Positions 4,739 to 59,412 of a stretch of 64,000 nucleotides of DNA are shown here, in pieces. The stretch covers positions 33,721,883 to 33,785,882 of the forward strand of contig NC_088789.1 in the NCBI RefSeq assembly GCF_949628265.1. Reading direction: 5' to 3'. The notes beneath the pieces were generated by a model that saw only the letters and a program-made list of their open reading frames with translations, was not told the DNA's origin and did not search any database. The DNA is from Cloeon dipterum (Eukaryota > Arthropoda > Insecta > Ephemeroptera > Baetidae). Numbering within the stretch: the first letter of the stretch is position 1; every line of letters begins with the position of its first letter. A program made the position numbers and the translations under genes.

Positions 4739-7700
4739 ATGAATTTCTGTTTGTGGACGTTACTTCTGATTGTTATTCTTCAGACAATTGGGCATGCACA
4801 AAATCAAGTAAGTACATCCTTTATAAATTATCGGGATCAATTTTTAATTAAATAATTTACAGGGAAACAAAATTAAATCCATCAAAATCACAATTAACAA
4901 TCAGAATTCTGGTAGGTTTTAGTTTGAAAATAAATCAGGTAATTTAAATTTCAATCAGGTCCGCTCAATATCCCCAAAATTCGTGTGCAAAACAATTTGC
5001 GAAGAAAACATATAATTATGTGTTGCGGATTTCAAAAGTGTCTGCCACCCACAAATGTAACGGTGAAAAAGACTACTCCAAAAAAGACTAGCCCGGTAAT
5101 TGCGCTTTAAAGAAAACTTGAAATCATTATTACCATTAATTGCGTTTTATAAAAGACCACTAGCAAGCTAACAACAACGTCAACGTTGGCAACGGCCACG
5201 ACGGCAGCCATGATGACAGGAAGCTCTGCTGGTGAATCATCAACAGCAGCTCCAACGGATGCCATCACTATTCCGAGTAAAATGAAAATATTGAAAATGA
5301 AAATCAATGCTCAGCGGACAAGGAAATTCAGGTCACGATTCCAGTCCTAGCCCCCTTGATGTGACAGTTGTTCCAACTGAGGTCATAACTGACCTTAAAA
5401 CTGACGTCACGACCAAAGCGACCGAAACGGTGCAAGATGGCACCGAATCGCCGACTCCTCTGACCGATGGGAACTCTCTATCCACGCAGGTTGTCCAAGA
5501 CACGACAACTGCAATCGATGCGATTTCTTCAAAAGCTGAAGCTACTTCAGCATCTTCAACAGCAACGCCCACGACGACAAAAACCACGCCTAGGACTACA
5601 ACAACCACACCCTCAACGACGACGACAACAACAACAACAACCACAACCACAGTATGTTTATGAATTTTAATTAAAATCGTGTAGAAACTTAACTAGAAGA
5701 AAATCACAGCCTTTTCCGTGCAGTTTGTCTTGTGCAGATTACAACAGTTTTCTTGCGGTATGTTTTATTCATGTGTTGTGCCATCAATCGACTCCCGAGG
5801 ATCGAATTAGGTTAGGTGGCCGAATCACTAGACATTCCGAAATGGAAAAACTATAACTACAGGGAGATTTTAAGTCTAAACCTAGCAAAAAGTCGTAAAC
5901 CGAGACAGCGATAGACTGAGCAAATAATAATAAGTGACAAAGGCTATCTGCTGTGGCGCTTGCCACACAACTCTGATTGCGTCACTAGAGTTAATTTTGC
6001 TAGTTTTAGACCAAAAAGGAACGTATCTTAAGCACGTTATATGTCGGATTAATTCGGCTACCTAACCAAATTTGAGCCTTTCAGCATCAAAAATCAAAAC
6101 TAATATAATATCTTACTTTATTTTAGAATAATCCACCCTCAGGAACACTAAAGAGTAGGTGATTTTCGTACATAATTATAATCAATCATCTAATTTATAT
6201 AATATATACGTACATGTTTTTGAAATCTGTAAATGAAATCACTTAATAAACCGTCCAATGTTCACTTATGTTTAAAAATATTCGATTATGTATTCAGAAA
6301 AAATAATTCTAATTTTAAATAAAACGAAGGCAATGGAACGAAGAAGACGTCACATTGTGGCATGGAGTACTTTGTTTCTAGCCTTAGAGTAAGGTTTCTT
6401 CGTACTCCAAACAAAATTTTAATGTAAAAACAGGTGTCGAGAAACGAAGCAGCAATGCGATGCAAGGTGCTAAACATGATCCTTTTGACCGTGACCTCTC
6501 TCGAGGGAATGGAATGCATGAACAATTTTGAAGGTTTTAATTCTCCCGTGTTGTGATCCAATTTAATTATCTTAATTAAGCCAACACTTTCTGGACAAGC
6601 GGCTCGAACGAAGATGATCAATGCCATTTAGCAAAAGAATACGCTTGGTGCTCGACGGGCTTCAATATGTCGACAAAACTAATCGAATCGGGAAAAATCT
6701 GGTTGCCGACCAACAAAACCATCCCTTCTGCCACGGAACGTTGTTTGGCTGTTTCTCTATCCACTAATTCCTCGAAACAGGGCCTGGTGCACAGAAAGTG
6801 CGACGACGCCCTGCCCTTCATCTGCCAGTATTCCGTCGACTGCCCAAAGCTCTGCATCAAAGACGTTTGGATCACATAACATATTCATATCAATCAACTA
6901 AGTCTAACACATTTCAGGACTCCTTATTCGACTCCTCAGGAAATTTGAAAGGTATATAGAAAACTGAGAGAATGATAAAATGCTAAATCTTAAAATGAAG
7001 AGAAAAAATCCTACGGAATTTGGTTTGACATCGGCACCTACACCTATCTCTTGGGAAACAAGCCAGTTTGTATCCGAGTTTTGAATAACATCAAAGCCTA
7101 ATTTTTTTGGCTTGACAGATGGCGTGGTTGGACAGCTACCGCCAGTGTTGCGCTTTGGGAATGGAGACGCTCAACATCGACAACGCAGCTGAGCAATTGG
7201 GCCTTACTGCCCTGGCCAGCACAAATAAAGGTTATTGGTCACGTTTAATTAAAAAATGAACTATATGGAACATTATTTAAATTTCAGCCAACTGGACTGC
7301 GAATTTCAATTACTGGACCAGTGGCACGTGGAAAGGGGCGCCTGTGAAGCAGTGGTCGTGGTGCGATCCCAATGGACCTAAAGTTTTCGCAAAGGGTCTT
7401 GTTTGGGAATCCTATCAGCCCGACAATAAAGGAGGAAACGAGAGCTGCGTGCATTTCCGCTTTACTTTGAATAGAACGGGCACCATCTTGACGGACCGCA
7501 ATTGTGCAAACAAATATATATTCGCTTGCAAGGTATAGCTTGAATTTAAAAGAGGAACCAATTTTTATTTTAAATTTTAGAGTGCATTGAAAACCACCCC
7601 AAAACCTTGCGTTGTGTCCTGCCCAATGGAGATTTGCAAAAGAAATGTAAGATCTATATTAAAGATGAATTTATATATATGTAGGATTAAACTAAAATCT

Positions 7701-9902
7701 AGGATTTCCTCTTTGACACCAACACTGCTACCACGGAGAAAGTTTTGCGGGGTATAATCAGTAACTTTGGTTAAAAAATAGATCTTGTAATTGAGTACCG
7801 TTATCCAGACTATTTCTCTTATGGGAACTGGTACGATGGATGTGGCCGAAACTTTCTCACTTACAACTTAAAAATGGTGAGAGATATCAAACTGTTTTAA
7901 ATCATAGTTTAAAAAATGGTGGTGATTAGTCAAACTGGACAGCCGCCCGTAACAGTTGCTGTGAAATTGGTCTGACTCTGGCCTCAATGGAATCGGTTGG
8001 GAAGACGAGTTGCTTTTCCAGAATAGTCTCAAGTACGAACAAAATCTCAAAGAGTGACGATATAAAGTTTAATATACAAAACAACTCAAGAATATGCTCC
8101 GGTGACTTATGGTGACTTCTGGCTCTCTGGAACTGATCTGGGGTGTGACACAAACTTCCGCTGGTGCACCCTGGGCCGGGACTTCGTCCACCCTGAGCTC
8201 ACTTGGAAGGAGGGACACCCTAAACCCAACCTGGACTGCGTTTATCTCGAAGCGAGGAATGAATCTGTGTTGCTGGCCACCGATGACTGCGCCCAAAAGA
8301 AGAATTTTCTTTGTGAAGTGCGAAAGAGGGCAACCTTTCGAAGGGCCATGCAGACCGAATGTGCGGAAACCTGGGACATCACCGTTGGTAAGGCCCAAAA
8401 TAATTCCGTTGAGAATGACTAAAAGAAAAGTTAATTTCTTGCAGAACAAATCGATCTACTATTGAACGTGAGTGCAATTCTCACGGCAACTATATCGCTT
8501 AATTTGAAGGTTGGTCTGGAATTTCTGATCAGTTAAGATTTATAAATTAAAATTCGTATTTTTAGTGCTTCTTGAAATGCGTCGGAGTGGAAATCGGAAT
8601 GGTATTTAAACATATTTATTGAAAGATTAAAGCTGAATCAACTCTCATTATTAATTTATTAATCTGAAGCTTGGCATTGGGGGATTGGATGCCATAGCAT
8701 CGCTGCGACAAATTGAACTCGTGTCCCAAGAGGATCCCGTGAAATTGGAGACCGGATTTGTTGCTTACGATCAATGCAGCGGCATCAGTCTGTGTTCTTT
8801 TTACTTACTTTCCGCAAAAAATCATTTTTAAAATAGAATCTGACGACGAATGTGTGATTGCCCACGAAACTTACAAGTGCGGCCAGCAAAAAGCGCCTGG
8901 TTTGGTCTCAAAAATCATCACCAACAACTTCGATAACGGAACAATGGTCTGATTTAAAAATCATATTATTTAAGATTTCTAATTTTTTCCGATAGCTGCT
9001 CCCACCAACTCCGTGTGTTCCGTTGCGCCGAATTTGTTGGCTTTCGAACGTTCTTCCTTGCGTAAAAAACGTAAATTTTGTTGTTGGTTGTTAGGATAGA
9101 TTTTTAAAGATGTGAATTGTAGCAAACAGCAATTGACTTGATTTATAATAATCCTGCTGGGAAAAAGGGTTAGTGAATCTTTAACCTTTTGAAAAATTAT
9201 GTTCTACAAATCAACATTAAATATAGACAAATACGGAGCCATTCTGACATCTGGAAACAGGACATTTTATGTGTCTAATTCAGGGACATCTCCAGTATAT
9301 ATTCGCCATGTTAGACAAATGAAATTTATTCTCTTGCAATATTTTAGTATGCGTATGATGCCTACACTCATTGCTGCGAACTTGGAATGCACCTTATTGA
9401 ACCTCAGAATTGGAATGATTCTAAATTTATTGCATCAGTCATAGGTATGATAATAATAATGGCCTCTGCGTACAATTGACTCAATATTTTTTAAACGTAA
9501 CCGTCTGGGAAGATTAACGTTATACAGTTTAACATTAAAAATTTCCACTACCTTTGATCTGAAAAACAGTACATGCTGATATAAGGAATTAAACTAACGT
9601 ATTTTTTTGCAGGTAACGATTTTACTACAATGGTTGGCGACACAGAGTTCATCAACCAGACGCACGAGATTTGGTGTCGCAGCCGCACCGTTTTGCCGGA
9701 TAACATGTTCGATCCGAAGAGGAGATACCAATGCAATCCGTCGTACATCAGAATGACACCAAGTCAGGCTACACTATTTAGTGAATTGCTGGAAATAATG
9801 GATACCAAGGCCGGATTGAAAGTCAATGTCATTGGAAAAGTGTACCCTGCCCCTTCTAAAGTGGTTTCAGGTATACAGCGTTATGTTTGCGAGAAACCTT
9901 AG
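4739..9902 (+). CDS. copy A: secreted mucin-CTLD3-OBP-CTLD protein (1036 aa)
   Basis: Twenty-seven exons join in frame: 4739-4807, 4863-4911, 4959-5095, 5156-5276, 5332-5651, 6127-6154, 6330-6388, 6434-6533, 6581-6864, 6918-6951, 7001-7065, 7119-7230, 7288-7532, 7581-7646, 7703-7751, 7809-7876, 7930-8032, 8091-8387, 8445-8509, 8566-8601, 8670-8787, 8837-8946, 8996-9070, 9123-9168, 9227-9294, 9348-9444, 9613-9902. Residues 1-20 are a signal peptide ending GHA. A CCGFxxC segment is near 70. Residues 86-232 are Thr/Ser-rich and should carry O-glycans. CTLD1 is about 242-384, CTLD2 402-541 (with QPD), CTLD3 580-715. The OBP domain is about 715-845 (Cys 727, 758, 762, 805, 814, 823) and CTLD4 is 886-1036. 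I see no membrane anchor, so a secreted or matrix protein is likely. Ligand and role are unknown. The copy is intact. Confidence 0.9.
5810..6067. repeat. MITE-like inverted repeat in intron 5 of copy A
   Basis: GGTTAGGTGGCCGAAT at 5810-5825 is inverted at 6052-6067 with one mismatch, bounding about 258 bp. Related GTAGCCGAT-type ends occur in intron 5 of the other copies (about 17137-17470, 30250-30860, 38690-38870, 49860-50165 and 59322-59412). The insertion therefore predates the duplications. No coding capacity is seen. Confidence 0.5.
8360..8880 (+). other. OBP (PBP/GOBP) domain within copy A
   Basis: After splicing, six cysteines show the spacing C-x30-C-x3-C-x42-C-x8-C-x8-C, inside the classic insect OBP pattern in which C2-x3-C3 and C5-x8-C6 are invariant. 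The first cysteine sits in the same exon as the end of CTLD3. The rest is in exons 19-22, followed by a KAP-containing tail typical of OBP C-termini. All six copies keep the six cysteines and the spacing. The fold call rests on this pattern, not on a database search. Confidence 0.85.
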
Positions 9903-15941: not shown

Positions 15942-18900
15942 ATGAATTTCGGTTTATGGACATTGCTCGTGATTGTTGTTCTTCAGACAATTGGGCATGC
16001 ACAAAAACATGTAAGTAGAGATAACGATTTTTCTGGCTGTGAAATTTAAATCGACTGTTTCTTCTGAGCTTGCAATTGGGGGGGGGGGATGCAATAACCA
16101 GAAAAATGTTCTAATTTCACAGCCCAAAGAATTTCCACATAAATTGATTAAAATGACTTTCAGAGAAACAAAATTAAAACCATCAAAATCACATATAACA
16201 AACAGGGTTATGGTAGGGTTTTTTATTTTTAAAGAAAAGCGATTTTAATTTCAATCGCAGGTCCAATTAAAATCCCAAAATCTCTTCTACAAAACAAACT
16301 TCGGAGAAAGTATATCATCACTTGTTGCGGATTTAAAAAATGTCTGGCAACTGCGAATGCAACGGTGAAAAAGACAACTCCAACCAGCTCGGTATATATA
16401 CATTAATGGAAATTTTGAAATCAGAGTAAAAATGTGTTTTAAAACAGACCACTAGCATTCTAACAGCAACGTCAACGTTGCCAACGGCAACGACGGCAGC
16501 CATGATGACAGGAAGCTCTGATGGTGAGTCATCATCGGCAGCACCAACGGATGCCATCACTATGCCGAGTAAAATAAAAATTCGAATAAAAATTCATGCC
16601 CATAGCGGTCCAAAAATCAGGTCACGATTCCAGTCCTAGCTCGCTTGATGTGACAGTTGTTCCAACTGACGCTCCAAATGAGGCCACAACTGACCTTAAA
16701 ACTGACGTCACGACCAAAGCGGTGCCAGATGGAACCAAATTGCCGAATCCTTCGACCGATGCGGCCTCTGATCCATCCACGCAGGTTGTCCAAGACACGA
16801 CAACTGCAATCGATAAGATTTCATCAAAAGTTGTAACACCTACAACAATATCATCAACACCTACAACAAGTAAGCCCACGGCGACAACAACTACGACCAG
16901 CATTACAACAACTATGCTAAGAACGACGACGTCGACGACGACCACAACAACAACAACAACAACTACAACTACAACTACCACCACAGTCCGTTAATGAATT
17001 TTTATTAAAACCTTATGGAAATTTAACTAGATGAAAATTACAGCCTATTCCTTGCAGTTTATCTTGCGCAGATTACAACAGTTTTCTTGCGGTAATTTTT
17101 ATTCATGTCTTGTGCCTCATCAATCGACTCCCGAGGATCGAATTAGGTTTGGTTTTGCCGAATAACTTTTGACATATGCCGAAAGTAAAAAAAATACAAA
17201 TCGAATTTTGGTCTAAATTTCTAGTAAAGAGATTGCATAGCGACACGGGGATAGTTAGAGCAATTAAAAGTGACAAGGCTATCTGCTGCGTCGCAGCCAT
17301 TGGTGCTACGTCAGAGAGCCAATCAGAGCACATCTCTGGTTGCGTCAAATGGTGTTAATTTTTATAGTATCAGACCAGAATGTTACTGTTTTTGTGATTC
17401 CGCGTATTTTAGGCATGTTTTATGTCTAATTTTCAACCCGATTGAATCGGCTACCTTTCCAAACTTGAATCTCCAACAAAAAATCCCGATCTAAAATATA
17501 TTTTTCTCATTTTAGAATAATCCAACCTCAGGAACACAGCAAAGTAGGTGTTTTGTGAAATTTTAAAGGATATATAATTTTAAAATAAACTCAGCAAAAG
17601 GAACGAAGAAGAAATCGAATTGTGACATGGAGTATTTTGTTTCTACCTCAACAGTAAGATTTTTTAATTATAATTCGGAACAAGGATAAAACATACAAGC
17701 GTAGGCAACGCGAAACGAAGCAGCAATGCGATGCAAGGCGCTGAACATGACCCTTTTGACCGTGACCTCTCTCGAGGGATTGGAATGCATGAACAATTTT
17801 GGAGGTTTTATTAGATCACACGTGCTGTGAGATCCATATTTTATTTTTCTTAATTAAAGCCAACACTTTCTGGACGAGCGGCTCGAACGAAGACGATCAA
17901 TGCCATTTGGCAAAAAAGTACGCTTGGTGCTCGACGGGCTTCGATATGTCGAAAGAACTAATCGAATCAGAAAAAATGTGGTTGCCGCCCAAAAACACGA
18001 TCCCTTCTGCCACGGAGCGTTGTTTGGCCGTTTCCTTATCCACAGTATCCACGAAACAGGGTCTGGTGCACAGAAAGTGCGACGACGCCCTGCCCTTTAT
18101 CTGCCAGTATTCCGTCGACTGCCCAAAGATCTGCATCCGAGACGTTTGACTTAAATAACTTATTCAAATCATTAAATTAAATCTATCCCATTTCAGGACT
18201 CCTTGTTTGACTCCTCAGGACTGTTAAAAAGTATAAAAGGAAATTTAAAGTATTTTTAAAAGTGTAACCGTAAAATGTAGATATAAAATCATACGGTTTT
18301 TGGGTTGACATCGGAGCCTACACGTATCTCTTGGGGAACAAGCCAGTTTGTATCCGAGACTAGCATGGCTCCAAAGTCTAATTTTTGGCCTGATAGATGA
18401 CGTGGTTGGACAGTTACCGCCAGTGTTGCGCTTTGGGAATGGAGGCGCTCAACATTGACAACAAATCTGAGCAATTGGGCCTCACTGCCCTGACCAGGGC
18501 AAATAAAGGTTTTTGGATATGTTTCACAAAACATCATAGTGTTACTTTTTATGTTTCAGCCAACTGGACTGCGAATTTCAATTACTGGACCAGTGGCACG
18601 TGGAAGGGTGCGCCTGAGAAGCAGTGGTCGTGGTGCGAGCCAAATGGACCAACTGTTTTCGCAAAGGGTCTTGTTTGGGAAAACCTCCAACCGGATAATA
18701 AAGGAGGCAACGAGAGCTGCGTGCATTTCCGCTTTACTTTGAACACAACTGGCACCATCATGACGGACCGCAACTGCGCCAATAAATATATATTCGCGTG
18801 CAAGGTATTGCTTGAAATTTATATAGGCCCTAAAACTATGAATTTAATTTTCAGAGTGCATTAAGGACCACCCCAAAACCTTGCGTTGCTTCCTGCCCTA

Positions 18901-21303
18901 TAGGAAAATGCGAAAAAGATGTAAAATATATATTAATTAAAATTAATCTATAAATGTAGCATCAATCATAACTCTAGGATTCTCTCTTTGACACAAACTT
19001 AAATACGAATGAGAAAACTTTACGGAGTATTGATAATTTAGGTTAGAAAAAACCTTTTTGAATACTGTACTTTTCGTTATCCAGATTATTTCTCTTATGG
19101 AAACTGGTACGATGGGTGTGGTCGGAACTTTCTGACTTACACCTCTAAATTGGTAAGACATCAAATTTATTGTCATTGATTTACTCTAATTATTATCAAA
19201 AGTCGAACTGGATAGCCGCCCGTAACCGTTGCTGTGCTATTGGTCTGACTCTTGCCTCAATGGAATCAGCGGGCAAGTCGAGTTGCTTTTCCAGAATAGT
19301 CTCAAGTACGAACAAAATCTGAGAGTGACGAAATAATAAAAGTTTAAAATACACAAAAATTAAAGAATTTGCTCCGGCAACCTTTGGAGACTTCTGGCTT
19401 TCCGGCACAGATCTGGGGTGTGATTCAAACTTCCGCTGGTGCACCCTGAGCCGGGACTTCGTCGACCCTGAGGTCAAATGGAAGGAGGGACACCCGAAAC
19501 CCGGTCTGGACTGCGTTTATCTCGAACTGAGGAATGGATCCGCGTTGCTGGCCACCGATAACTGCGCCCAAAACAAGAGTTTTCTCTGCGAAGTGAGGAA
19601 GAAGGCTACCTTCCAAAGGGCCATGCAGACAGAATGTGCAGAAACCTGGGACATCACCGTTGGTAAGGCCCGGAATTCATTCCTTTGAGAAATTCTGAAT
19701 GGAAAACCAATTATATGCAGACCAAATCGATCTTCTAATGAACGTGACCACTTTTCTCACGGCAACTATATCGCTGAATTTGAAGGTTGGTTAAAAATTA
19801 ACTCTCGTCATAGATATCATAAATAAAAATACGCTTTTTAGTGTTTCTTGAAATGCGTCGGAGTGGAAATTGGAATGGTATTGAAAACAAAATTGAAAAT
19901 TGCACATGTTCATTTTTAATCCAATCTCCTGTTGGATTTTAATTCATATAAAACAGATTATAAACAATTATTTTTCTTCAGTTTGGCATTGGAGGATTGG
20001 ACGCTTTAGCAACGCTGCGACAGATAGAACTCGTGTCCCAGGAGGAACCCACGAAATTGGAGAGGGGATTTGTGGCTTATGATCAATGCAGCGGCATTAG
20101 TATGTCTATTTTCAAATAAATGGCAGGAATTCATTTTTAAAATAGAAACAGACGACGAGTGTGTGATTGCCTATGAAACTTACAAGTGCGGCCAGCAAAA
20201 AGCGCCTGATTTGGTCTCAAAAATCATCACGAACAACTACGATAATAATACAATGGTTTGATAAAAAGTGTAATTGATATAATATCTGAATTTTTTGTCT
20301 TCTGAAAGCTGTACCCACCTACTCCTTGCGTTCCGGTGCGCCGAACCTGTTGGCTTTCGAGCACTCTTCCTTGCGTAAAAAACGTAAATTCACTCATTGG
20401 TTTGCAGGACGTATTATTAAAAATTTAATGTTAATTTGTAGCAAACGGCAATAGACTTATTGTATAAAAATGATGAAGGTAATTAATTCTTTACAAATGC
20501 ACTGAAATCGCGTTTGATAAATTCCTCTCGAGATTCCTGAGTTGTGAAATCTTTTTTTTTTAATTATTTCGATCCTCAGGAATCGATCGTATCTTACAAA
20601 AATGTGGTTTTAGTGACACTTGATTTGAAAAATTTGGTTTTACAAATCAGCATTAAATATAGACCGATTTGGAACCATTGCGAGACCTGGTGGATCAAAC
20701 AGGACATTTTATGTGACCAAACAAAATGCAAAAACGGTAAATATTCGCCATATGTTTGCCAATTGAAATTTAAACACTCTCTTGCAAATTTAGACTCCGT
20801 ATGATGCGTACACTCATTGCTGCGAACTTGGAATGTATCTCATAGAACCTCAGACAAAAGCTGATATTGAATTTATAACATTAACTACTGGTATGGTTTC
20901 TATATGTTTTATTTCCTTAAAAATAATAATAACAATTATATACGGCACAAAAACATCATGTCATAAAGCCAAACACGAAAATAATTATAAACCACCTTTG
21001 ATTTGTGCAGGTTATTACTCTTTAATGATGGTTGGCGATACAGAATTCATCAACCAGACGCACGAGGTTTGGTGTCGCAGCCGCACTGTTTTGGCAGATG
21101 ACATGTACGATCCGAAACAAAGATACTACTGCAATCCATCACACCTCAGAATTGATCCAAATACATGGGCGTATGATTTGTTATCTATAGGACTTTATAT
21201 AGCTGATCCCAAGAGCATATCGAAAGAAGTCACTGGAGATGTGTACCCTGACGTTTCAAAAGTTGTTAATGATGTTCAGCGGTATATCTGCGAGAAACCT
21301 TAG
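15942..21303 (+). CDS. copy B: secreted mucin-CTLD3-OBP-CTLD protein (1047 aa)
   Basis: Exons: 15942-16010, 16164-16212, 16261-16391, 16448-16568, 16621-16985, 17516-17543, 17601-17653, 17705-17804, 17860-18143, 18197-18230, 18281-18345, 18397-18508, 18560-18804, 18855-18920, 18978-19026, 19085-19152, 19203-19305, 19366-19662, 19721-19785, 19842-19877, 19982-20099, 20146-20255, 20309-20383, 20442-20478, 20663-20736, 20794-20890, 21011-21303. All phases agree and no stop intervenes, so this copy is intact. The layout is that of copy A, with a longer Thr tract (exon 5 is 365 nt). CTLD2 has QPDN followed by GGNESC. The OBP cysteines are conserved in exons 18-22. Intron 1 holds a run of about eleven G. 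The exon 5 donor reads GTCCGT, weaker than the GTATGT of copy A. Confidence 0.9.
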
Positions 21304-26072: not shown

Positions 26073-29000
26073 CTAGGGTTTCTCGCAGATATACGTCTGC
26101 ACATCGGAAACCACTTTAGAAGGGTCAGGGTACACTGCTCCGGTGACTACGGTCTTAGCAGAGGTCTTGGGGTCATTTATTTCCACTGGGTAGGTATAAA
26201 TTATGCTATGTATCGTTCTGAGGTACGTCGGACCGCATTGGTATCTTGAAGCCGCTTCATACAAGGCATCCGGCAAAAGGGTGCGGCTGCGACACCACAC
26301 CTCGTGCGTCTGGTTGATGAATTCTGTCTCGCCCAACATCATTTTAGAATAGCCAGCTGCACCAAATACATGAATTTAAATTCCTTATCAACATCGTGTG
26401 CGTCAATTTGTGAAACAAAAGAAGGTTTATAATTTTTGTGTTGATCTTCCTGGACAGTGAAGTTTAAAATATTTGAAACAAATATGTGAAAAATCGTTAT
26501 ATTTGTAAAAGTTAATTTAATTTTTAAGAAAATAACATGGAATACCAAAGTTTGCTGTGAGTAATACATAATCTGCAAGCGTCTGAGGTTCTACGAGATT
26601 CATTCCAAGTTCGCAGCAACGAGTGTAGGCAATATATGGAGTCTAAAATTGCAAGAGCGTAAAGTTCAACAGCCAAATATGGTGAAAATATTATTTACAA
26701 GAATTGCGTTCGGATCATATGCAAAATAAAATATCCTGTTGTCAACCGTCTTGAAATTTCCCGGTTTGTCTAAATTGTTGATTTGTAGAATTAGAATTAT
26801 TCATTCCCACTAGAAACCACATTTTTTATTCCAATCTATTACTAAGGGTCAAAATGGGTGTGGTATGGTGACGCGAGAGCAGACCTGCCAGAGGCGCAAA
26901 AAGCGAAACGCACGTTTTTCTGGCGCGCACTAATGTTCTATATTATCATATCTATTTTGACCCTGAGGAATATGGATTGGAGCAGACGAAATTATAGTTT
27001 CAGTAGAATTTCAAAGAATTAATTACAAGCCCCAGTATAATTGGTCAAGTCGATCAAGGTTTGCTACAATTTAAAGAAAATCATAAATGATATGACCTGA
27101 AAACTAATAAATGAATTTACATTTTTTACGCAAGGTAAAGTGTTCGAAAGCCAACAAGTTCGGCGCACCGGAACACAAGGAGTTGGTGGTATCAGCTTTA
27201 AGAAGAAAAAATTTCAATCCTTCAATTCTTGTGGCAAGTGTATAGTGATAGTGATCAGTGATAAAATTTTAATTTGCGGCTCAGTACGGCGTGATATTAC
27301 TTTGCAAAGGATCGTTTTAGCTTTATTTTGCTAGTACTGTTCGCCATTTCTTGCTTTTAAAATTTCCATTCAATGTGTATTTATTTTATTGACTATTGCA
27401 AGAATAATGCTGTTGAAACAAGAATACTAATTAATTTTTAAATCAAACCATTGTCTGGTTATCGAAGTTGTAGGTGATGATTTTTGAGACCAAATTTGGC
27501 GCTTTTTCCTGGCCACACTTGTAAGTTTCGTGGGCAATCACACACTCGTCGTCTGATTCTGTTTTAAAAATTAATTTCTGGCATTTAATTATTTGAAAAT
27601 AGACATACTGATGCCGCTGCATTGATCGTAAGCCACAAATCCTGTTTCCAATTCCACGGGGTCCTCCTGGGACACGAGTTCTATTTGTCGCAGCGTTGCT
27701 AAGGCTTCCAATCCCCCAATGCCGAACTAAAGGATAATAATTATTACGAGCCTGTTATACAAATATGATTTAAAACTGTTATTTTCAGTAAAGCAAGAGC
27801 GTATTAAAAATACGAAAGATATATTTTAATACCATTCCAATTTCCACTCCGACGCATTTCAAGAAGCACTAAAAATGCATATTTTTATTAATGGATTGAA
27901 ATGTTCACTAATTTCTGTCCAACCTTCAAATTTTGCGAAATAGTTGCCGCGAGAAAAGCGCTCACGTTCATAAGAAGATCGATTTGTTCTGCATGAAATT
28001 AACTTCCCGTTTAGCCATTCTAAACAAAATGATTTTCGGGCATTTACCAATTGTGATGTCCCAAGTTTCTGCACATTCGGTCTGCATGGCCCTTCCGAAG
28101 GTACCCTTCTTCCTCACTTCACAGAGAAAGCTCTTGTTTTGGGCGCAGTTATCGGTGGCCAGCAACGTGGATCCATTCCTCACTTCGAGATAAACGCAGT
28201 CCAGGCCGGGTTTCGGGTGTCCCTCCTTCCAATTGAGCTCAGGGTGGACGAAGTCCCGGCTCAGGGTGCACCAGCGGAAGTTTGAGTCACACCCCAGATC
28301 AGTGCCGGAGAGCCAGTAGTCTCCAAAGGTCGCCGGAGCGAATTCTTGAGTGGTTTTTATATTAAACCTTATTTCGTCACGCTTTTAGATTTCTTTCTTA
28401 CTTGAGACTATTCTGGAAAAGCAACTCGACTTTCCCGCCGATTCCATTGAGGTCAGAGTAAGGCCAATTTCACAGCAACTGTTACGGGCGTTTGTCCAGT
28501 TTGACTGTTGTCATTTTTTTATAATTTTTCAACTATTAAAAATTATTTGATGTCTCACAAATTTAGAATTGTAAATCAGAAAGTTCCGACCACATCCATC
28601 GTACCAGAATCCATAAGAGAAATAGTCTTGATATCAATACAGAATTACAAGGTTTATTTTTAACAACAGGAAGTAAACTATATACCCTTTAAAATTGGCC
28701 GATTCGAAGAGTCCGGGCTAAATAGGACATCCTAGATTTTAATTTAATGCTAAGTTTATCCATTCATCTTTTAAAGATATAGTTTCTACATTTCTTTTGC
28801 ACTTATCTGTTGGGCAGGAAGAAACGCAAGGTTTTGGGGTGGTTTTTAGAGCGCTCTGAAATTTTAAATCCTAATTTCTTGGGCCGAAATTAATTTCAAG
28901 TCTTTACCTTGCACGCGAAAATTAATTTATTGGAACAGCTGCGGTCTGTCATGAAGGCCCCTCTAGTAGGCAAGTTAAAGCGGAAATGCACGCAGCTCTC

Positions 29001-31983
29001 GTTGCCTCCTTTGTTGTCGGGCTGAGAGGGTTCCCAAACAAGACCCTTTGCGAAAACCTTTGGTCCATTGGGCTCGCACCACGACCACTGCTTAACAGGC
29101 GCCCCCTTCCACGTGCCACTGGTCCAGTAGTTGAAATTCGCAGTCCAGTTGTCTGAAATTCCAAAATATTTTCATGGACCATGTATTAAATTAAAGGTCT
29201 AACCTTTATTTGCCACGGTCATGGCAGTAAGGCCCAATTGCTCAGCTGCGTTGTCGATATTTAGCGTCTCCATTCCCAAAGCGCAACATTGGTGGTAACT
29301 GTTTAACCACGTCATCTGTCAAGCAAAAAAATCAGACTTTGGAGCAATGCGAGACTCGGATACAAACTGGTTTGTTCCCCAAGAGATAGGTGTAGTTGCC
29401 GATGTCAACCCAAATTCCGTAGGATTTTTTGTCTCCATATTTAATTAAATTATCTTTTGATCACTCTTAAAAATGCTTTTATACCTTTTAAATTTCCTGA
29501 GGAGTCAAATAAGGAGTTCTGAAATGGAACAGACTTAACTAAATGAATATGTGTTTATGTTTTGTAAACCGAACGTTTCGGTTGCAGATCTTTGGGCAGT
29601 CGACGGAATACTGGCAGATGAAGGGCAGGGCGTCGTCGCACTTTTTGTGCACCAGGCCCTGTTTCGAGGATTCTGAGGATAAAGAAACGGCCAGACATCG
29701 CTCCGTGGCAGAAGGGATCGTGTTTTTGGGCGGCAACCAAAGTTTTTCCGATTCGATTAGTTCTTTCGACATATCGAAGCCCGTCGAGCACCAAGCGTAC
29801 TTTTTTTCCACATTGCAGTTTTCATCTTCGTTTGAGCCGCTCGTCCAGTACGTTTTGGCTTCATTGAGAGTATTAATAATGTTCACGTACCAAAGGCTAT
29901 AGATTTAAAACCTTCAAAATTGTTCATGCATTCCAATCCCTCGAGAGATGTGACGGTCAAAAGAGTCATGCTTAGCGCCTTGCATCGCAATGCTGCTTCA
30001 TTTCTCGTTGCCTGATTTTGTATTTAAAAATCATCGCGAATTAGAATAAAAAATCTTACTGTAGAGCTTGAAACAAAATACTCCAATTCACAATTTGATG
30101 TTTTCTTCGTGCCTTTTGCTGCGTTTATTTTAAGATTAGATGTGATTTGTTATTTTGTAAAAAAAAACTACTTTCCGGCTCTCCTGGGGTTGGATTATTC
30201 TAAATATAAGAAATGAATTAAGCTAGGATATTTGCTGCTGTATGGAGATTGAAATGTGGAATAGTAGCCGATTTCATACGGATGAAAATTTGGCCTACCG
30301 CGTGCCGTGGAAAACAGTTACTTTTTAATCTTCAAGCCAGAAATTGAATAAAATATCTTTTCTGTCTGATCCTTAGCCATCGAAATCTACTTTAAAATTT
30401 AAAAATTCAAAGCACCGATTTTGGCGGCGAGCAAAATCACTCTATGAAGGGACCGATAAATTGTTTCTGTGTAGGTTCGAAGAGTCCGAGACAGAATGGC
30501 AAAAATGGTCCATGAAGGAAACCATTCGCCCGCTCCTAATCCCAAGTCGCGGACTGACTTTATTCTCGTCAACTACGGTCGGAAAAAATGTCCAATCTGG
30601 TCCTCTGGTGTCTGGCAATTTTTGGACCGTTCGCGTTCGACTGCGGGAGCGTAATTAACACCGTTCATTATGTTGTTTTTACAGTGCCACATTTTCCAAC
30701 CTTGTCTCTTATTAATTTTTCTATCTATCGCTGTGTCGCTCCCATCTCCTATCTCGATTTATATTATAGCACTCTTTGCTAAGGTTTATACCAAAAGGCA
30801 CTATATTATATGCATGGTAACGGTTTTTACGTTTCGGCATGTTGAGTAAATCGGCCAACTAACCCTTTTCGTTCCTTCAGGATTTAATTGATGGCTCAAA
30901 TCAAGAATAAAGAATATATAACATACCGCAAGAAAATTTTTGTACTCTGCACAAGATAAACTGCACGGAATTGGCTGGAATTTTCTTCTGTTAAATTTTC
31001 CTTTTGGTTTTAAGAAAGAGATTATAAACGGACTGTGGTTGTTGTTGTTGTTGTCCTTAGCGTAGTTGTCGTCGTAGGCGTAGTTGCTGCCATTCTGGGC
31101 ACTGTTGTTGTTGTTGTTGTCCTCATAGTGGGCGTGGTTGTTGTCATCCTTTGGGATGATGTTGATGATAGTGAAATAATTCCATCTTTTGATGAAATCG
31201 CATCAATTGCAGTTGTCTTCTGGAAAACCTGCGTTGATGAAAAGTCCGCATCGATCAAAGGAGTCGTCGATTTGGTGCCATCTTGCGCCATTTCGGTCGC
31301 TTTCATCGTGACGTCAGTTTTAAGGTCGTTTGTGGCCTCAACCGGCCCGTCAGGTGCAACATCTGTCCCATCAAGGGGGCTAGGAGTGGAATCGTGACCT
31401 AAATTTTCGTCCGCTTGAGCATCGAATTTTATTCGCATTTTTATTTTACTCGCTGCCGTGATGGCATCCGTTTGTGCCGCTGACGATGGTTCACCGTCAG
31501 AGCTTCCTGTCATCATGGCTGCCATCGTTGCCGTTGGCAACGCGAACGTTGCTGTCAGAATGCTGTCGGTCTGCTTTAAAACACAATTTAACTTGATTTC
31601 AAATTTTCCTTTAATGCGTATACCGTGCTGGTTGGAGTGGTCTTTTTTACTGTAGCATTTGCGTTTCCATGACATTTTTTAAATCCGCAACACTTGATGA
31701 TGTATTTTCTCCGAAATTTGTTTTGCAGAAGAGATTTTGGGATTTTAATAGGACCTGTTTGAAATTTAGGTTACTTAAATTCTTTTTCAACTTAAAACCT
31801 ACCAGAATCTTGTTTGTTAAATGTGATTTTGATGGTTTTGATTTTGCTTCCCTATATATAACTCTCATTTTAGGCAAAAATCGATACCAAATATTAATTA
31901 AGGAGTGTACTTACTGGTTTTTTTGCATGCCCTGTTGTCTGAACAATTACAATCACTAGCAACGTCCAGAAGCCGAAATTCAT
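26073..31983 (-). CDS. copy C: secreted mucin-CTLD3-OBP-CTLD protein (1042 aa)
   Basis: Exons in order of translation: 31983-31915, 31851-31803, 31754-31624, 31570-31450, 31398-31034, 30199-30172, 30112-30060, 30011-29912, 29858-29575, 29518-29485, 29432-29368, 29315-29204, 29152-28908, 28855-28790, 28731-28686, 28626-28559, 28504-28402, 28344-28048, 27988-27924, 27868-27833, 27726-27609, 27558-27449, 27195-27121, 27063-27027, 26769-26699, 26642-26546, 26356-26073. Every exon is open and in phase, so this copy is intact. Domains are as in copy A; CTLD2 keeps QPDN. Intron 4 (51 nt) is a multiple of three without a stop, so its retention would only add 17 residues to the stem. The other copies have 52-55 nt there and would shift frame. 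Confidence 0.88.
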
Positions 31984-34452: not shown

Positions 34453-37400
34453 CTAAGGTTTCTCGCAGACATACGTCTGTACATCGGAAACCACTTTAGA
34501 AGGTTCAGGGTACACTTTTCCAGTGACTGCTGACTTACCAAAGGCGCTCTTGGTATCATTTATTTCCAGTGGGCAGCCATAAATTACACTATTTAACGTT
34601 TTGAGGTACGTCGGACCGCATTGGTATCTGGAACTCGCTTGATACAAGGCATCCGGCAAAAGGGTGCGGCTGCGACACCACACCTCGTGCGTCTGGTTGA
34701 TGAATTCAGTGTCGCCCAACGTCATAATAGATTTGACACCTGCACAAAATATATACAATAATTTAATAATTCCTTGTCAGCATCGGGAGTGTTTTTTTTT
34801 GTTGGTCACACATAAAACTTCCTCGACAGTTGAGTATAAAATAATTTGATGAGGAACAAGGGCGCGGGCGCTGGAAGGAGAGGCTTGTCAGAGAGAGAGG
34901 AGCCGGGATTTTAGAAGGAGGCCTGCGAGAGCGTCGATACTGGGGGGCGAGGGTATAAGGGGGGGGGGGGGCTAACTAGGGGACCAACGGTTCAAATTAA
35001 ATCACAACAATCGCTTCGCCCTACATTTTGTAGCGGCTTGGTTCCTTGATTAACTCCCTCCACGTCCACCACTACGAAGGTATGATAAAAGCCCTTTTTT
35101 CCCCGGTCAAGTAGATGTGTTTATTGACTGGGGAAAAAAGGGCTTTTATCATACCTTCGTAGTGGTGGACGTGGAGGGAGTTAAAATATGTGTACAAATC
35201 GGTATATTTAATTTAAATTTAAAGGAATTATTAATGAATATGGCAAACCAAATTTTGTGTGAAGTAATTGATAATCAGCAAGTGTCTGAGGTTCTACGAG
35301 ACGCATTCCAAGTTCGCAGCAACGAGTGTAGGCTTGATACGGAGTCTAAATTTGCAAGAGAGTAAATTTCAATTGAAAAACAAAACGAAATTATTTACAA
35401 CGATTGCGTTTTCAAATGCATAGTAAAATATCCTGTTGCCAACAGTCAGAAAATTTGTCTATATTGTTGATTTGTAGAAGTAGAATTAATCATAATTATG
35501 TACAAGATTAAATTCCGACTAAAACCAAATTTTTTTATAATTCCAATCCATTCCTTAAGGATCAAATTAGGTGGCAAGAATTTTTTGATCCGATCTATTC
35601 AAGAATGGATTGGAACTGACGAAATTATAGTTTCAGCGGATTTTTAAAGAATTAATTACAAGCCCCAGTATAGTTGTTAGTCAAGTCGATTACGGTTTGC
35701 TACAATTTACAGAAATTCCTTAACAATATGTCCTGCAAACCAACAATAATTTACGTTTTTAACGCAAGGCAAAGTGTTCGTTAGCCAACAAGTTCGGCGC
35801 ACCGAAACACAAGGAGTTGGTGCGTACAGCTTTAAGAAGACAAAAAATTAAAATCTTAAATAAAAGAATTTTTAATCAAAAACCATTGTCTGGTTATCAA
35901 AGTCGTTAGTGATGATTTTTGAGACCAAATTAGGCGCTTTTTCCTGGCCGCACTTGTAAGTTTCGTATGCAATCACACACTCATCATCTGATTCTAATTT
36001 AAAATTGAATATCTGAAATGAAGTTAATATAAACACAAACTGATGCCGCTGCATTGATCGTAAGCGACAAATCCCGTCTCCAATTCCACGGGATCCTCCT
36101 GGGACACGAGTTCTATTTGTCGCAGCGTTGCTAAGGCGTCCAATCCCCCAATGCCAAACTATAGAACAATAATTATTATGTGTATAATTTAAAATTTAAA
36201 TAAGGCAAGAGCATATTATTAAAAAAGCATTAAAGAGACTTGATAAATCTATTTTTTAAATTTATGTTCAAATACCATTCCAACTTCCACTCCGACGCAT
36301 TTCAAGAAGCACTATAAATGCGTATTTTTATTTATGATTTATAATTATTATTAATTCCTGATCAACCTTCAAATTTAGCGAAATTGTTGCCGCGAGAAAA
36401 GCCGTGACGTTCATTAGAAGATCGATTTGTTCTGCATGAATTTAACTTTCCATTTAGCCCCTCTCAACAAAATAATTTACGGGTGCTTACCAACAGTGAT
36501 GTCCCAAGTTTCTGCACATTCGGTCTGCATGGCCCTTCCGAAGGTAGCCTTCTTTCTCACTTCGCAGAGAAAACTCTTGTTATGGGCGCAGTCGTCGGTG
36601 GCCAGCAACACGGATTCATTCCTCACTTCGAGATAAACGCAGTCCAGGTCGGGTTTCGGGTGTCCCTCCTTCCAAGTGAGCTCAGGGTGGACGAAGTCCC
36701 GGCTCAGGGTGCACCAACGGAAGTTTGAGTCGCACCCAAGATCAGTGCCGGAGAGCCAAAAGTCTCCAAAGGTCTCCGGAGCATATTCTTGAATTGTTTT
36801 GTATATTTAACTATATTTCGTCGCTCTCAGATTTTATTAGTACTTGACACAATTTTGGAAAAGCAACTCGACTTTCCCGCTGATTCCATTGAGGCCAGAG
36901 TCAGGCCTATATAACAGCACTGGTCGCGGGCGTCTTTCCAATTTGACTATTGATCATTATGTGATAACTTTCGTAAAACTATAAATGATTGTTTGACGTC
37001 TCACCAATTTTGAGTTGTAAGTCAGAAAGTTCCGACCACATCCATCATACCAGTTTCCATAAGAGAAATAATCTGGTCATACCAATGCAAAAATACAAAA
37101 TTATTTTTTAACTACATAGAAGGGAATTATACTCCGTAAAAAGTTCTGACTAGTCAAACTGTCGTAGCCAAATAGGGAAGGCTAGATTTTAAATTAATGC
37201 CACATTTATCCATTCATCTTTAATAGATAAATTTTTTACATTTCTTTTGCAGTCCTCTGTTGGGCAGGAAGCAACGCAAGGTTTTGGGGTAGTTTTTAGA
37301 TCACTCTGAAATTTAAAATCATAACTTGGCCCAAAATAAGTTTTAACACTATACCTTGCACGCAAATATATATTTATTTGCGCAATTGCGGTCTGTCATG

Positions 37401-39879
37401 ATGGTTCCCGTAGAATTCAAAATAAAGCGGAAATGCACGCAGCTCTCGTTGTCTCCTTTATTATCGGGTTGGAGTTTTTCCCAAACAAGACCCTTTGCGA
37501 AGACTGTCGGTCCATTGGGCTTGCACCACGACCACTGCTTCTCAGGTGCACCCTTACCCGTGCCACTCGTCCAGTAGTTGAAATTCGCGGTCCAGTTAGC
37601 TGAAATTTAAAAATGGAACTTAAGACTGTATTTCTTAATTCATGACCAAGCAACCTTTATTTGCCTTAGCCAGGGCAGTAAGGCCCAATTGCTCAGCAGC
37701 GTTGTCGATATTCAGCGTCTCCATTCCCAAAGCGCAACACTGACGGTAACTGTTTAACCACGTGATCTGTTAGGCCATACAAATAGACTTTGGACTCTCG
37801 CTAATCTCGGATACAAACCGGCTTGTTGCCCAAGAGATAGGTGTAAGAACCGACGTCAAACCATATTCCGTAAGATTTTTTATCTTGATATAAAATAAAA
37901 TTTATCTTTTGAACGTTCAATAAAATTCCTATATACCTTTCAAATTTCCTGAGGAATCGAACAAAGAGTCCTGAAATTGAATTGACTTAATTTAATGAAT
38001 ATTGATGTATTGTAATTTGAACGTCTTTGATGCAGCTCTTTGGGCAGTCGACGGAATACTGGCAGATGAAGGGCAGGGCGTCGTCACACTTTCTGTGCAC
38101 CAGGCCCTGCTTCGAGGAATCTTTGGAAATAGAAACGGCCAAACATCGCTCCGCGGTAGAAGGGATCGCGTTGTTGGGTGGCAACCAGAGTTTTTCCGTT
38201 TCGATCAAATTTTCGGACATGTTGATACCCGTCGAGCACCAAGCGTACTTTTTCTCCACATTGCAATTATTATCTTCGTTTGATCCACTTGTCCAGAAAT
38301 TGTTGGCTTAATTTGGTGCATAAATATATGGATTATTATTTAGCATGTGTGAATTAAAACCTTCGAAATTGTTCATGCATTCAATTTCCTTGAGAGAGGT
38401 CACTGCCAAAAGGGTCATGTTTAATGCCTTGCATCGCAGTGCTGCTTCATTTCTCGTTGCCTGAGTTAATAATTAAAAATTCTTCCATGGCTAGAATTAA
38501 AAAATCTTACTGTAGAGCTTGAAACAAAATACTCCGTTTCACAGTTTGATGTTTTCTTCGTGCCTTTGGCTGATGAGTTGAATTTAAAATTATGTATCGT
38601 TAGTTAGTTCGTAAAAAACCTACTTTCCAGCTCTCCAGGGGTTGGATTGTTCTAAATTAAAGAAATAAATTAAGCTACGAATATATAAATATGCTCCAGA
38701 GGATGAAATTTGGCAAAGTAACCGATCAAGTCCGGGCGAAAAATTGACCTACCGCGTGCCGTGGAAAAAACAGTTGCTTTTTTATCTGAATTTATAGCTT
38801 ATAACTATAACACCCGAGTTCCCGGTTTTTATGTATCGGCATATCGAGTAAATCGGAAACTGATCCTAATTTAGAAGAGTTGATTGTTGATGGCACAAAC
38901 ACGAACAAAAATTATAGATTACCGCAAGAAAATTGTTGTAAGCCGCACAAGATAAACTGCATGGAATTGGCTGTAATTTTCATCTGGATAAATTTCCAGT
39001 GGTTTTAAAAATAGTTATAAACGGACTGTGGTTGTTGTTGTCGTCGTCGTCGTCGATTGCGTAGTTGTTGAAGATATTGAAGAAGTTAATACAACTTTTG
39101 ATGAAATAATGGTTGTCTTCTGGTACACCTGCGTGGATGGAAAGACCGCATCGGTTTCAGGAGTCGGTAATTTGGTGCCATCTTGCACCGTTTCTGTCGC
39201 TTTTGTTGTGACGTCATTTTTAAGGTCAGTTATGACCTCATTTGGAACGTCAGTTGCAACAGCTGTCACATCAAGGGGGCTAGGACCGGAATCGTGACCT
39301 GATTTTTCGACCGCTTGAGCATTGAGATTTTTAATCGCAATTTTATATTACTCCGGTAATGTGATGGCATCAATTGGTTCTGTGAATGATGATTCACCAT
39401 CAGCACTTCCTGCTATGGCTGCCGATGCCAACGTTGACGTTGCTGTTAGTTGGCTATTGGTCTTCGTTATAAAACGCAATTTTATGATGATTCGAAATTT
39501 CTAATTTAAAGCATTACATACCTTGCTGGTTGGAGTGGTCTTTTTTACCGTTAAATTTGCAGTTGGCAGACATTTTTTAAATCCGCAGCACGTGATGATG
39601 TAATTTCTTCGGAATTTGTTTTGCAGAAGAGATTTTGGAATTTTAATGGGACCTGATTGAAATTAAAGTTACTTTTTTCTTTTTCAAACCAAAACCTATT
39701 ATACCATAATTATATTTGTTAAATGTGATTTTGATGGTTTTAATTCTGTTTCCCTATAATTAATTTAAATCAAAACCTGATCCCGATAATTTATTAAGGA
39801 ATGTACTTACTTGTTTTTTAGCATGCCCGATTGTTTGAAGAGCAAAAATCGCAAGCAACGTCCAGAAACCAAAATTCAT
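34453..39879 (-). pseudogene. copy D: mucin-CTLD3-OBP-CTLD gene with two frame lesions
   Basis: Exons in order: 39879-39811, 39753-39705, 39652-39522, 39461-39352, 39298-39027, 38651-38624, 38563-38511, 38460-38361, 38306-38023, 37970-37937, 37883-37819, 37766-37655, 37599-37355, 37305-37240, 37181-37133, 37072-37005, 36946-36844, 36787-36491, 36431-36367, 36311-36276, 36158-36041, 35993-35884, 35829-35755, 35699-35660, 35458-35399, 35345-35249, 34739-34453. Exon 4 has an extra base before its usual donor, giving 110 nt instead of a 3n+1 length. An upstream GTGAAT donor (exon 39461-39398) would restore phase. Exon 25 is 60 nt where the phase requires 3n+2, so CTLD4 ends early at TGA. CTLD1-3 and the OBP are open. 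The Thr tract is the shortest of the six. It could still yield a protein lacking CTLD4. Confidence 0.8.
34832..35184. repeat. GC-rich insertion ending in a long perfect hairpin
   Basis: The last intron of copy D is about 500 bp, against about 190 bp in copy C. The extra part is purine-rich, has a run of about fourteen G near 34957-34970, and ends in an inverted repeat: 35050-35110 and 35124-35184 are complementary over 61 bases with one G-T pairing, separated by a 13-base loop. Neighbouring repeats are all diverged. Such a perfect fold is either very recent, constrained, or an assembly or foldback-read artefact. Confidence 0.7.
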
Positions 39880-44782: not shown

Positions 44783-45648
44783 TACGCAGGGCAAAGGTGC
44801 TGGTGTTCGACCTGAGGAACGACCACTACTTGTTCACCTACGAGTTCCCCGACTCGGTCTGGAAGGGTGGCTTCAGCTTCCTGGCGGACATGGTGCTCGA
44901 CAGGACGTCCGACGACCTGCTCGTGTACGTGGCCGACGCGTCCGGCGCCCTCATCGTCTTGAGTGCGATCAAAAACAGGGCGTGGCGCGTCCAGCACCAG
45001 GCCATGAGCGCCTCCAACATGTTCTCGGCAGATGGCGTCACTACGCTCGCCCTCTCGCCGCGTCGCAACAGGAATTCGCTCTGTTTCAGTAGGAGAGAAG
45101 CTCCAAAGTAAGTGTTTTGCGGTCGTTAAATTTAAAAATTTCCCGCCAAAACTTAATAATACCCGAAAATTAACAATCTGTTCGAAAAAGACAGTCTTTG
45201 ACGAAGTTTCTGAGCTCACCAATCGATTCTTGAGGGTCGAATTAGTTAAATTGGATATTTTTTCCGACCAAAAAGTCCAGCGCAACGTGCGAACTTTTTT
45301 CCCGCCAAAACAATATGAATGCGAGAAGTGCGTATGCGTCTCAGAGCTTGCTGGATGTTGACAAAGAAGTCATCCGTACAGCTGCGGTCTCTCTGAAAGT
45401 GCTCAAACCAGCTCTCACGCATGCGCACTTCTCACATTCTCATATTTTGTTTTGGCGGGAAAAAGTTCGCATGTTGCCCTGCACTTTTTGGTCGGTTAAA
45501 ACATCCACTTTGCCTAATTCGACCCTCGAGAATCGATTGGTGAGCTTAGAAACTTCGTCAAAGATGGACTTGATCACAAAAATAAATATTTTTAGGATTT
45601 CTGGCAGTGCCTGTGTTCAAGCTGCGCTCAAAAAGCGAAAATTTGACA
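44783..45648 (+). pseudogene. yellow-like internal fragment (broken)
   Basis: 44783-45110 matches most of exon 2 of the intact gene at 53741, including EFPDSVWKGGFSFLADMVLD and VADASGALIVLSA. A two-base insertion near its end (AGGAGAGAAGC instead of AGGAGAAGC) shifts the frame just before the donor. The intron follows, then the start of exon 3 at about 45595-45648 with one base missing. Exon 1, the start of exon 2 and the 3' end are absent. It sits tail-to-tail with copy E. Confidence 0.75.
45189..45566. repeat. long inverted repeat inside a yellow intron
   Basis: Left arm about 45189-45362 and right arm about 45390-45566 are imperfect reverse complements, sharing TTTGACGAAGTTTCT, CACCAATCGATTC and CCCGCCAAAACA. 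The same element lies at the same intron position in the intact gene (about 54625-54993), so it inserted before the gene was duplicated. It looks like a MITE with long arms. Confidence 0.65.
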
Positions 45649-45846
45649 TCATCCTATTAGTTTTTATCATTTTATTTGGTCACAAATGAAGTTTCTACAT
45701 AGTCAAAAACTCTTTAACAGGACAAAATATAGAGTTGCATACCAATCTAGTTGAATTCACAAAAAGAAAACACTAAAAATTGAAAACATTTCAAGAAAAA
45801 AACACGTGCTCATCTAGATTGATTTTAAATTCCATTTTTGCTAATG

Positions 45847-57715: not shown

Positions 57716-57723
57716 GTGACGAC
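57716..57723. repeat. hAT target-site duplication, left
   Basis: GTGACGAC immediately before the element; an identical copy follows it at 59083-59090. Confidence 0.85.
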
Positions 57724-59082: not shown

Positions 59083-59090
59083 GTGACGAC
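59083..59090. repeat. hAT target-site duplication, right
   Basis: GTGACGAC, identical to 57716-57723. Confidence 0.85.
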
Positions 59091-59321
59091 AATTACCACA
59101 CCTACGACGCTGGAAACAACATCCACGACGACGACGACCGCAATAACTACAACAAAAATAACCACGGTACGTGTATGTGTTTTTTAGACCATATGGAAAT
59201 GTAACTACAAGAAAATTACAGCCAATTCCGTGCAGTTTATCTTGTGCAGCTTACAACAGTTTTCTTGCGGTATGAATATTAAAAATTCGTGTTTTGTGCC
59301 ATCCAATTTCGACACCACAGT

Positions 59322-59412
59322 AATTAGGTTAAAAGTAGCCGATTCAATCGACATGCAAAATTTTAAAAAACCGTTATGTGCAAATAGATTAGATCGGCTA
59401 CATTACCGTATT
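59322..59412. repeat. short inverted repeat in intron 5 of copy F
   Basis: AGTAGCCGAT near 59334 and ATCGGCTACA near 59393 are inverted ends of a 90-bp remnant of the intron-5 MITE found in all copies. Confidence 0.45.

Follow-up and report, generated by a model that had tools for sequence, protein, structure and literature searches.

The genome of the mayfly Cloeon dipterum (assembly GCF_949628265.1) contains, in a stretch of 64,000 nucleotides (NC_088789.1, positions 33,721,883 to 33,785,882; hereafter the window), six copies, A to F, of a gene that encodes C-type lectin-like domains (CTLDs) and an odorant-binding protein (OBP) domain in one predicted secreted chain. At the DNA level we regard the anatomy of this lectin-OBP chimera as established with high confidence. 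Two known families are joined here in an architecture that we have not found described, in what appear to be about a hundred copies.

An OBP domain within a multi-lectin gene

Copy A was modelled by hand, its introns being set at the DNA level from splice consensus and homology (Table 1). The product would comprise a signal peptide, a Thr-rich stem, CTLD1, CTLD2, CTLD3, the OBP domain, a cysteine-containing linker and a fourth lectin-like module ending at the stop, with phase agreement across all 27 exons of the hand model. A purpose-written spliced protein-to-DNA aligner, fed with the copy A protein, returned identical exon positions, which is a consistency check and not an independent prediction. 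An additional exon near 5710-5760 was rejected on hand reading, as it puts a stop in frame. The stretch 8091-8946, on which the original prediction centred, represents exons 18-22. That prediction placed the lectin-OBP junction inside exon 18, and there it lies: the end of CTLD3 (FLCEVRK, 8306-8326) and the first OBP cysteine (TECAETW, 8354-8374) are read in the same frame. The OBP domain was also said to reside in a secreted, Thr-rich, multi-CTLD protein, in agreement with the single 27-exon frame, the signal peptide (judged by eye) and a stem that contains 34-46% Ser plus Thr in the six window copies (22-34% Thr alone).

The nature of the OBP domain was assessed in 24 modelled copies, six from the window and 18 from elsewhere, of which 22 entered the OBP alignment (loci L023 and L029 were excluded for stops). 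The predicted OBP spacing of the cysteines, C-x30-C-x3-C-x42-C-x8-C-x8-C, was recovered exactly in all six window copies, and the six cysteines are invariant in 24/24 modelled copies. Against the Pfam family PBP_GOBP (PF01395) the copy A domain scored 34.9 bits (cut-off 22), and each of the 22 aligned copies matched at E≤0.01 (member 1: 35.3 bits). A profile of these copies retrieved 22 PDB sequences at E≤1, with E under 0.01 for 13 and a best value of 3.1e-7; 20 of the 22 are named as odorant- or pheromone-binding, the remaining two (3v2l and 8c68) bearing gene codes only. The alignment of LUSH to the profile pairs all six cysteines. Copy A further has two introns in common with a free OBP gene, L039, the one such gene on which this comparison rests: a phase 0 intron before Cys2 and a phase 1 intron between Cys4 and Cys5. 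OBP splice sites are described as conserved in other insects in the part of PMC2722677 available to us. By sequence and gene structure, the embedded domain is a classic six-cysteine PBP/GOBP domain. It is not a free-standing OBP, i.e. a single-domain protein of about 120-170 aa with its own signal peptide, being embedded in a 1036-aa frame. An exon-by-exon search of the genome with PBP_GOBP gave three places only, one over the cut-off, because the OBP domain is split across small exons.

On the lectin side, the whole copy A protein scored 44.1 bits against Lectin_C (PF00059), with three matching stretches when E values up to 10 are admitted, and the Pfam search of this protein revealed no family besides Lectin_C and PBP_GOBP. 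Taken singly, CTLD3 passed the Lectin_C cut-off and CTLD1 fell below it (Table 1), and neither CTLD2 nor the fourth module matched Lectin_C alone. CTLD2 carries the features CC...LGM, W-SG and QPDN...C-H...DR-C, with QPD retained in 24/24 copies; its profile matched solved C-type lectins in the PDB (best mosGCTL-1, E 2.8e-6) and reached 96.6% in hhalign against the CTLD3 profile. Lectin profiles were built from subsets of the 24 copies (CTLD2, n = 6; CTLD3, n = 7; fourth module, n = 12).

The OBP domain had been placed between CTLD3 and a CTLD4. The CTLD3 side of this claim stands; on the other side lies a module for which none of 12 members and neither of two divergent cousins matched Lectin_C in Pfam, and for which a profile search of the PDB gave no match. 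Its hhalign probability to the CTLD profiles is weak (53-73%, over 41-55 columns only). Conserved blocks such as EFINQTHEVWCRSR argue against simple decay, and with caution we describe the fourth module as CTLD-like and degenerate. The stem is probably O-glycosylated, judging from its composition, and each window copy contains 13-16 N-glycosylation sequons.

A family of about a hundred predicted genes

The genome searched comprises 190.1 Mb in 10 contigs, five of them 33-43 Mb long. An OBP protein query gave 213 matches. The exact pattern of the Cys2-Cys3 exon occurs at 98 sites and at none in a reversed control, and is thus not due to chance. With exon 18 as query, 150 of 400 candidates were scored, a junction being called when the match reached at least query position 95 of 98. 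By this measure 104 exons, window copies included, run from CTLD3 into the OBP domain, and the other 46 matches end earlier, at query positions 77-91. A Cys2 exon follows within 4 kb on the same strand for 94 of the 104 junction exons; conversely, a junction exon lies upstream of 95/98 Cys2 exons. The remaining three Cys2 sites, at C1:41343911 (L028), C1:39049014 (L042) and C5:25358711 (L041), belong to lectin plus OBP arrangements as modelled or read by eye. Lectin sequence is found upstream of all 98 sites, read in the sequence for 28 and located by exon-match position for the others. Since two sites (C1:40610992 and 40611549) share a single junction exon, Cys2 sites are not exactly genes. 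The 104 junction exons form 28 groups distributed over the five large contigs, including 11 singletons; the largest has 22 copies, the window among them. On this count the lectin-OBP chimeras are a genome-wide family of about a hundred predicted genes. The family is far larger than the six window copies first noted.

Outside the window, 20 loci of 10 kb were examined, 18 of which showed an OBP match of the chimera type (contigs C1, C2, C4 and C5). All 18 align along the order of copy A with 53-76% identity, the aligner being able to find pieces in copy A order only and the fourth module aligning poorly. At 14 of these loci the spliced alignment contains no stop or frame break. L023 (C1:37191500-37201499) has a stop in the OBP Cys2-Cys3 exon and one frame break, and is probably a pseudogene. 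The other broken loci are L024 (one break), L029 (a stop and a break around exon 19) and L031 (two stops, each where the alignment is weak); the alignment of L037 reaches core position 745 of 795 only.

More divergent cousins show the same association. L038 (C4), with approximately 32% identity, has the domain order of copy A by eye, and lectin domains precede the OBP domain in L040 (C3), L041 and L043 (C5) and L042 (C1). A lectin-like module follows the OBP domain in L040, L042 and L043; the L041 stretch ends before that place. L038 and L040 were read by eye from open frames, their aligned N-terminal pieces being spurious, and in L040 no CTLD1 was found by such reading. The five cousin OBP domains, spliced by eye with some exon ends approximate, scored 26.5-46.8 bits against PBP_GOBP. 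Cousin CTLD3 domains exceeded the Lectin_C cut-off in L038, L040 and L043, and not in L041 (13.8 bits). The one-exon junction recurs, at 31-40% identity, in the cluster on C3 and at C5:13.18 Mb; in L038, L041 and L042 an intron splits it. Because the same fusion is present in cousins as divergent as 31-40% identity, the lectin-OBP fusion is, on sequence grounds, old relative to the expansion of copies. The free OBP gene L039 (C3:3622800-3632799) is a classic OBP gene around which no lectin domain was recognised; as a query it found only itself and two weak places in the genome (E 0.46 and 0.88), hence no second copy at comparable similarity.

Across 22 copies (L023 and L029 left out), pairwise distances in the OBP domain were compared with distances in the other domains; the correlation was 0.74-0.78 for CTLD1-3 and 0.62 for the fourth module, a level reached by 0/9999 permutations in each case. 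Such a correlation is expected from joint inheritance, and co-copied neighbouring genes would yield the same. It bears on whether the chimera could be an artefact, either of a model that joins two adjacent genes or of OBP exons that occur solely in a transcript of their own. Such an origin appears highly improbable to us. Leaving room for it are the placement of introns by splice consensus and homology and the loci L038, L041 and L042, where OBP Cys1 is not in the open frame that holds the CTLD3 end and the one-exon argument fails. The 104 one-exon junctions, the consistent phases through 27 exons and the correlated distances (which linked neighbours would also show) speak against it, and no exon resembling a signal peptide was noticed ahead of the OBP domain, though no predictor search was made. 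As far as the DNA allows, a gene-model error is ruled out. That the fusion is old and not a mis-joined model, as originally proposed, gains from the phase-consistent exons, the recurrent junction exon, the introns shared with a free OBP and the low ratio of nonsynonymous to synonymous substitution (dN/dS) reported below.

Within the window, copies B to F align over all of copy A in 27-28 exons with 70-76% identity (spliced aligner). B, C and F are frame-clean, whereas the frame is interrupted twice in D and once in E (Table 1). Genes or fragments of the Major royal jelly protein (yellow) family (PF03022) are interspersed among them: open frames at 14266-14781, 24539-25276 and 54165-54668 scored 27.5, 45.0 and 63.3 bits, and a further royal-jelly-like piece at 22137-22720 was spotted by eye only. 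Between copies B and C (approximately 23000-23760), repeats in both orientations seen by eye are perhaps a mobile-element remnant.

Further lectin matches were noted on contig C2. A cluster at approximately 942000-988000 is 43-48% identical to the exon-18 query; four of its matches, near 0.95 Mb, stop at query position 90-91, just before or at OBP Cys1, with no Cys2 exon within 4 kb. These are possibly lectin-only relatives that predate the fusion. Four C-type lectin matches of equal score (C2:6339498, 6352950, 6366483 and 6380016; L005-L008) lie approximately 13.5 kb apart, and a second pair (C2:25217658 and 25231129) has the same spacing, which looks like a recent tandem repeat or an assembly duplication.

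Table 1. Features of the lectin-OBP copies in the window (positions count from the first nucleotide of the window).
Feature	Position	Strand	Remarks
Copy A gene	4739..9902	+	27 coding exons, 1036 aa; hand model, one open frame, every intron GT-AG
Copy A, exon 1, signal peptide MNFCLWTLLLIVILQTIGHAQNQ	4739..4807	+	judged by eye, no predictor
Copy A, Thr-rich mucin-like stem (exons 4-6)	5156..6154	+	34% Thr, 45% Thr+Ser, counted from residue 61
Copy A, CTLD1 (exons 7-9)	6350..6828	+	Lectin_C 19.2 bits alone, under cut-off 22.6
Copy A, CTLD2 with QPDN motif (exons 11-13)	7012..7532	+	no Pfam match alone; PDB profile search, best E 2.8e-6
Copy A, CTLD3 without EPN/QPD (exons 16-18)	7820..8326	+	Lectin_C 31.6 bits, cut-off 22.6
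Copy A, exon 18, junction exon (CTLD3 end and OBP Cys1 in a single frame)	8091..8387	+	
Copy A, OBP domain, six cysteines (exon 18 end to exon 22)	8345..8946 (about)	+	PBP_GOBP 34.9 bits; PDB profile search
Copy A, exon 20, starting at OBP Cys2, phase 0: CFLKCVGVEIGM	8566..8601	+	
Copy A, fourth CTLD-like module, degenerate and fast-evolving (exons 25-27 plus the last base of exon 24)	9168..9902	+	
Copy B	15942..21300	+	architecture as A; equivalent of exons 18-22 at 19366-20255
Copy C	26076..31983	-	architecture as A; equivalent of exons 18-22 at 27449-28344
Copy D	34456..39879	-	architecture as A; equivalent of exons 18-22 at 35884-36787; frame breaks in stem and at fourth-module start, both outside OBP
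Copy E	45594..51762	-	architecture as A; equivalent of exons 18-22 at 47052-47967; CTLD2 exon with a single 2-nt frame break; position of 3' end uncertain
Copy F	56807..63362	+	architecture as A; equivalent of exons 18-22 at 61318-62206

Domain constraint and candidate functions

Among eight close copies, median dN/dS was 0.16 for the OBP domain, 0.18 for CTLD2, 0.28-0.29 for CTLD1 and CTLD3, 0.42 for the linker and 0.75 for the fourth module. Averaged over pairs of the 24 copies, identity was 0.69 in OBP and in CTLD2 and 0.35 in the fourth module. After re-alignment of 11 copies, dN/dS was 0.16 for the OBP domain and 0.73 for the fourth module, with 8/55 fourth-module pairs above 1, in an alignment with 66 gap-free of 162 columns, as L015 is short. 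The fourth module is, by these ratios, under relaxed or diversifying selection, two regimes that pairwise counting does not separate. The lowest ratios, those of OBP and CTLD2, indicate that the carrier domain and the likely sugar-binding domain are both constrained.

Because the most constrained parts are the OBP domain and the QPD-bearing CTLD2, we tentatively favour, with confidence just short of even, a secreted, glycan-anchored chimera that carries a hydrophobic ligand on wet surfaces. The stem and the lectin domains, chiefly CTLD2 with its QPD, would fix the protein to glycans in mucus or cuticle or on a cell surface, and the OBP domain would bind a small hydrophobic ligand. Anchored in this way, the carrier might resist wash-off by water, unlike a small free OBP; the variable C-terminal module could confer a copy-specific partner, and the roughly one hundred copies would constitute a repertoire of carriers. 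Expression of OBPs in gills and nymph heads of C. dipterum, as given in the available part of PMC7250882, supports this reading if the genes are the same.

Several observations weigh against an anchored carrier. Galactose-type binding is associated with QPD, mannose-type binding with EPN; in CTLD2, T/S-D-R replaces the usual WND, and with the W-N of this motif missing, calcium and sugar binding are uncertain. None of the 24 main-family copies has either EPN or QPD in CTLD3. The fast C-terminal module is equally compatible with host-microbe conflict as with diversity of carriers, and the constraint on CTLD2, close to that on the OBP domain, makes for a weaker argument against a role in immunity.

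Immune recognition is indeed the main rival to the anchored carrier. The lectin domains and the variable C-terminal module would bind microbes in water-exposed tissue, the copies would form a recognition repertoire, and the OBP domain would take up microbial lipids or deliver a hydrophobic effector. We judge this possible but rather doubtful. It would account for the speed of the fourth module, with dN/dS above 1 in part of the pairs, for a CTLD2 almost as constrained as the OBP domain, and for the large tandem clusters; an EPN or QPD motif, moreover, is present by eye in CTLD3 of 3/5 divergent cousins (GEPNN, GQPDN and QQPDN in L040, L041 and L043, respectively; not in L038 and L042), and C-type lectins are frequent among immune proteins in general. 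Known lectin opsonins, on the other hand, need no ligand-carrier domain, yet this domain is intact in every copy, and the published expression of C. dipterum OBPs in nymph heads and in gill cell clusters positive for horseradish peroxidase (HRP) staining (available part of PMC7250882) does not favour immunity, provided that the genes correspond.

Alternatively, the protein might be a glycoprotein with a structural role in mucus, cuticle or egg coat, its OBP domain serving as a stable disulfide module without ligand. The Thr-rich stem, the number of N-glycosylation sequons and the limitation of copy A to the Lectin_C and PBP_GOBP families would suit such a role, which we nevertheless consider unlikely: an inert spacer is expected to drift, whereas the OBP domain has the lowest dN/dS of the chain, followed by CTLD2, and keeps its six cysteines at the classic spacing.

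Known families and the mayfly OBP repertoire

With classic insect OBPs (PF01395) the embedded domain shares the six cysteines and their spacing, the Pfam and PDB matches and the introns of a free OBP. Those proteins are free and about 120-170 aa long according to the available part of PMC13205551, whereas here the domain lies between lectin-type domains of a protein of approximately 1,030 aa. The double-domain or dimer OBPs of Nasonia, Drosophila and mosquitoes likewise place an OBP in a multi-domain protein and have expanded in tandem in single lineages after one fusion; there, however, OBP is joined to OBP, and the accessible part of that source reports no lectin domain (PMC3428353). C-type lectins and multi-CTLD proteins (PF00059, with mosGCTL-1 and mannose receptor 2 among the solved entries) resemble the chimera in the profile matches of CTLD1-3. 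The solved entries bear the names of lectins or lectin receptors and never that of an OBP, and the chimera differs from them in lacking WND in CTLD2 and EPN/QPD in CTLD3 and in its degenerate fourth module. No OBP-lectin protein was among the matches listed in literature searches aimed at OBP-lectin proteins or mayfly OBPs, which for the most part did not cover subscription journals; to that extent, the original statement that the architecture is not a described one holds.

In C. dipterum itself, the sections of PMC7250882 available to us report a 180 Mb assembly with 191 OBP genes, a set larger than any described before it. Of 167 OBPs, 82 are expressed in gills; 25 are specific to the gills, where several are expressed in discrete clusters of cells, and the OBP-expressing gill clusters show HRP staining (PMC7250882, same sections). 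The word lectin does not occur in that paper, and the genes are called OBPs. The published repertoire and the present family are alike in that each comprises a very large number of OBP domains and each genome is compact (180 Mb in the published work, 190 Mb in the present one); they are unlike in description, as OBPs in the former and as lectin chimeras in the latter, for what may be the same genes. In the main text of two later Cloeon papers (PMC11597413, PMC11491810), none of the terms OBP, odorant and lectin appears. For the mayfly Parafronurus youi, the available part of PMC13205551 lists 10 OBPs of 135-252 aa, so that the chimera may exist in some lineage only or may have been overlooked in this species.

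We consider it an evenly balanced proposition that the record OBP expansion of C. dipterum, including the gill-cluster genes with a neural marker, consists mostly of lectin-OBP chimeras and not of free OBPs, these chimeras being carriers held on glycans, with a conserved ligand domain and a C-terminal tip that diversifies, and serving chemical sensing or defence at water-exposed surfaces. Insect OBPs are usually regarded as small free carriers, and smell is inferred from the number of OBP genes. In the present case, about a hundred OBP domains of one genome are located in predicted secreted lectin chimeras, which unusually combine a strongly constrained OBP domain and a fast-evolving C-terminal module within one chain. 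This raises the question whether tethering to glycans lets an OBP work on wet, flushed surfaces such as gills. If the published mayfly OBPs are these genes, the headline result on aquatic chemosensation would need to be read anew.

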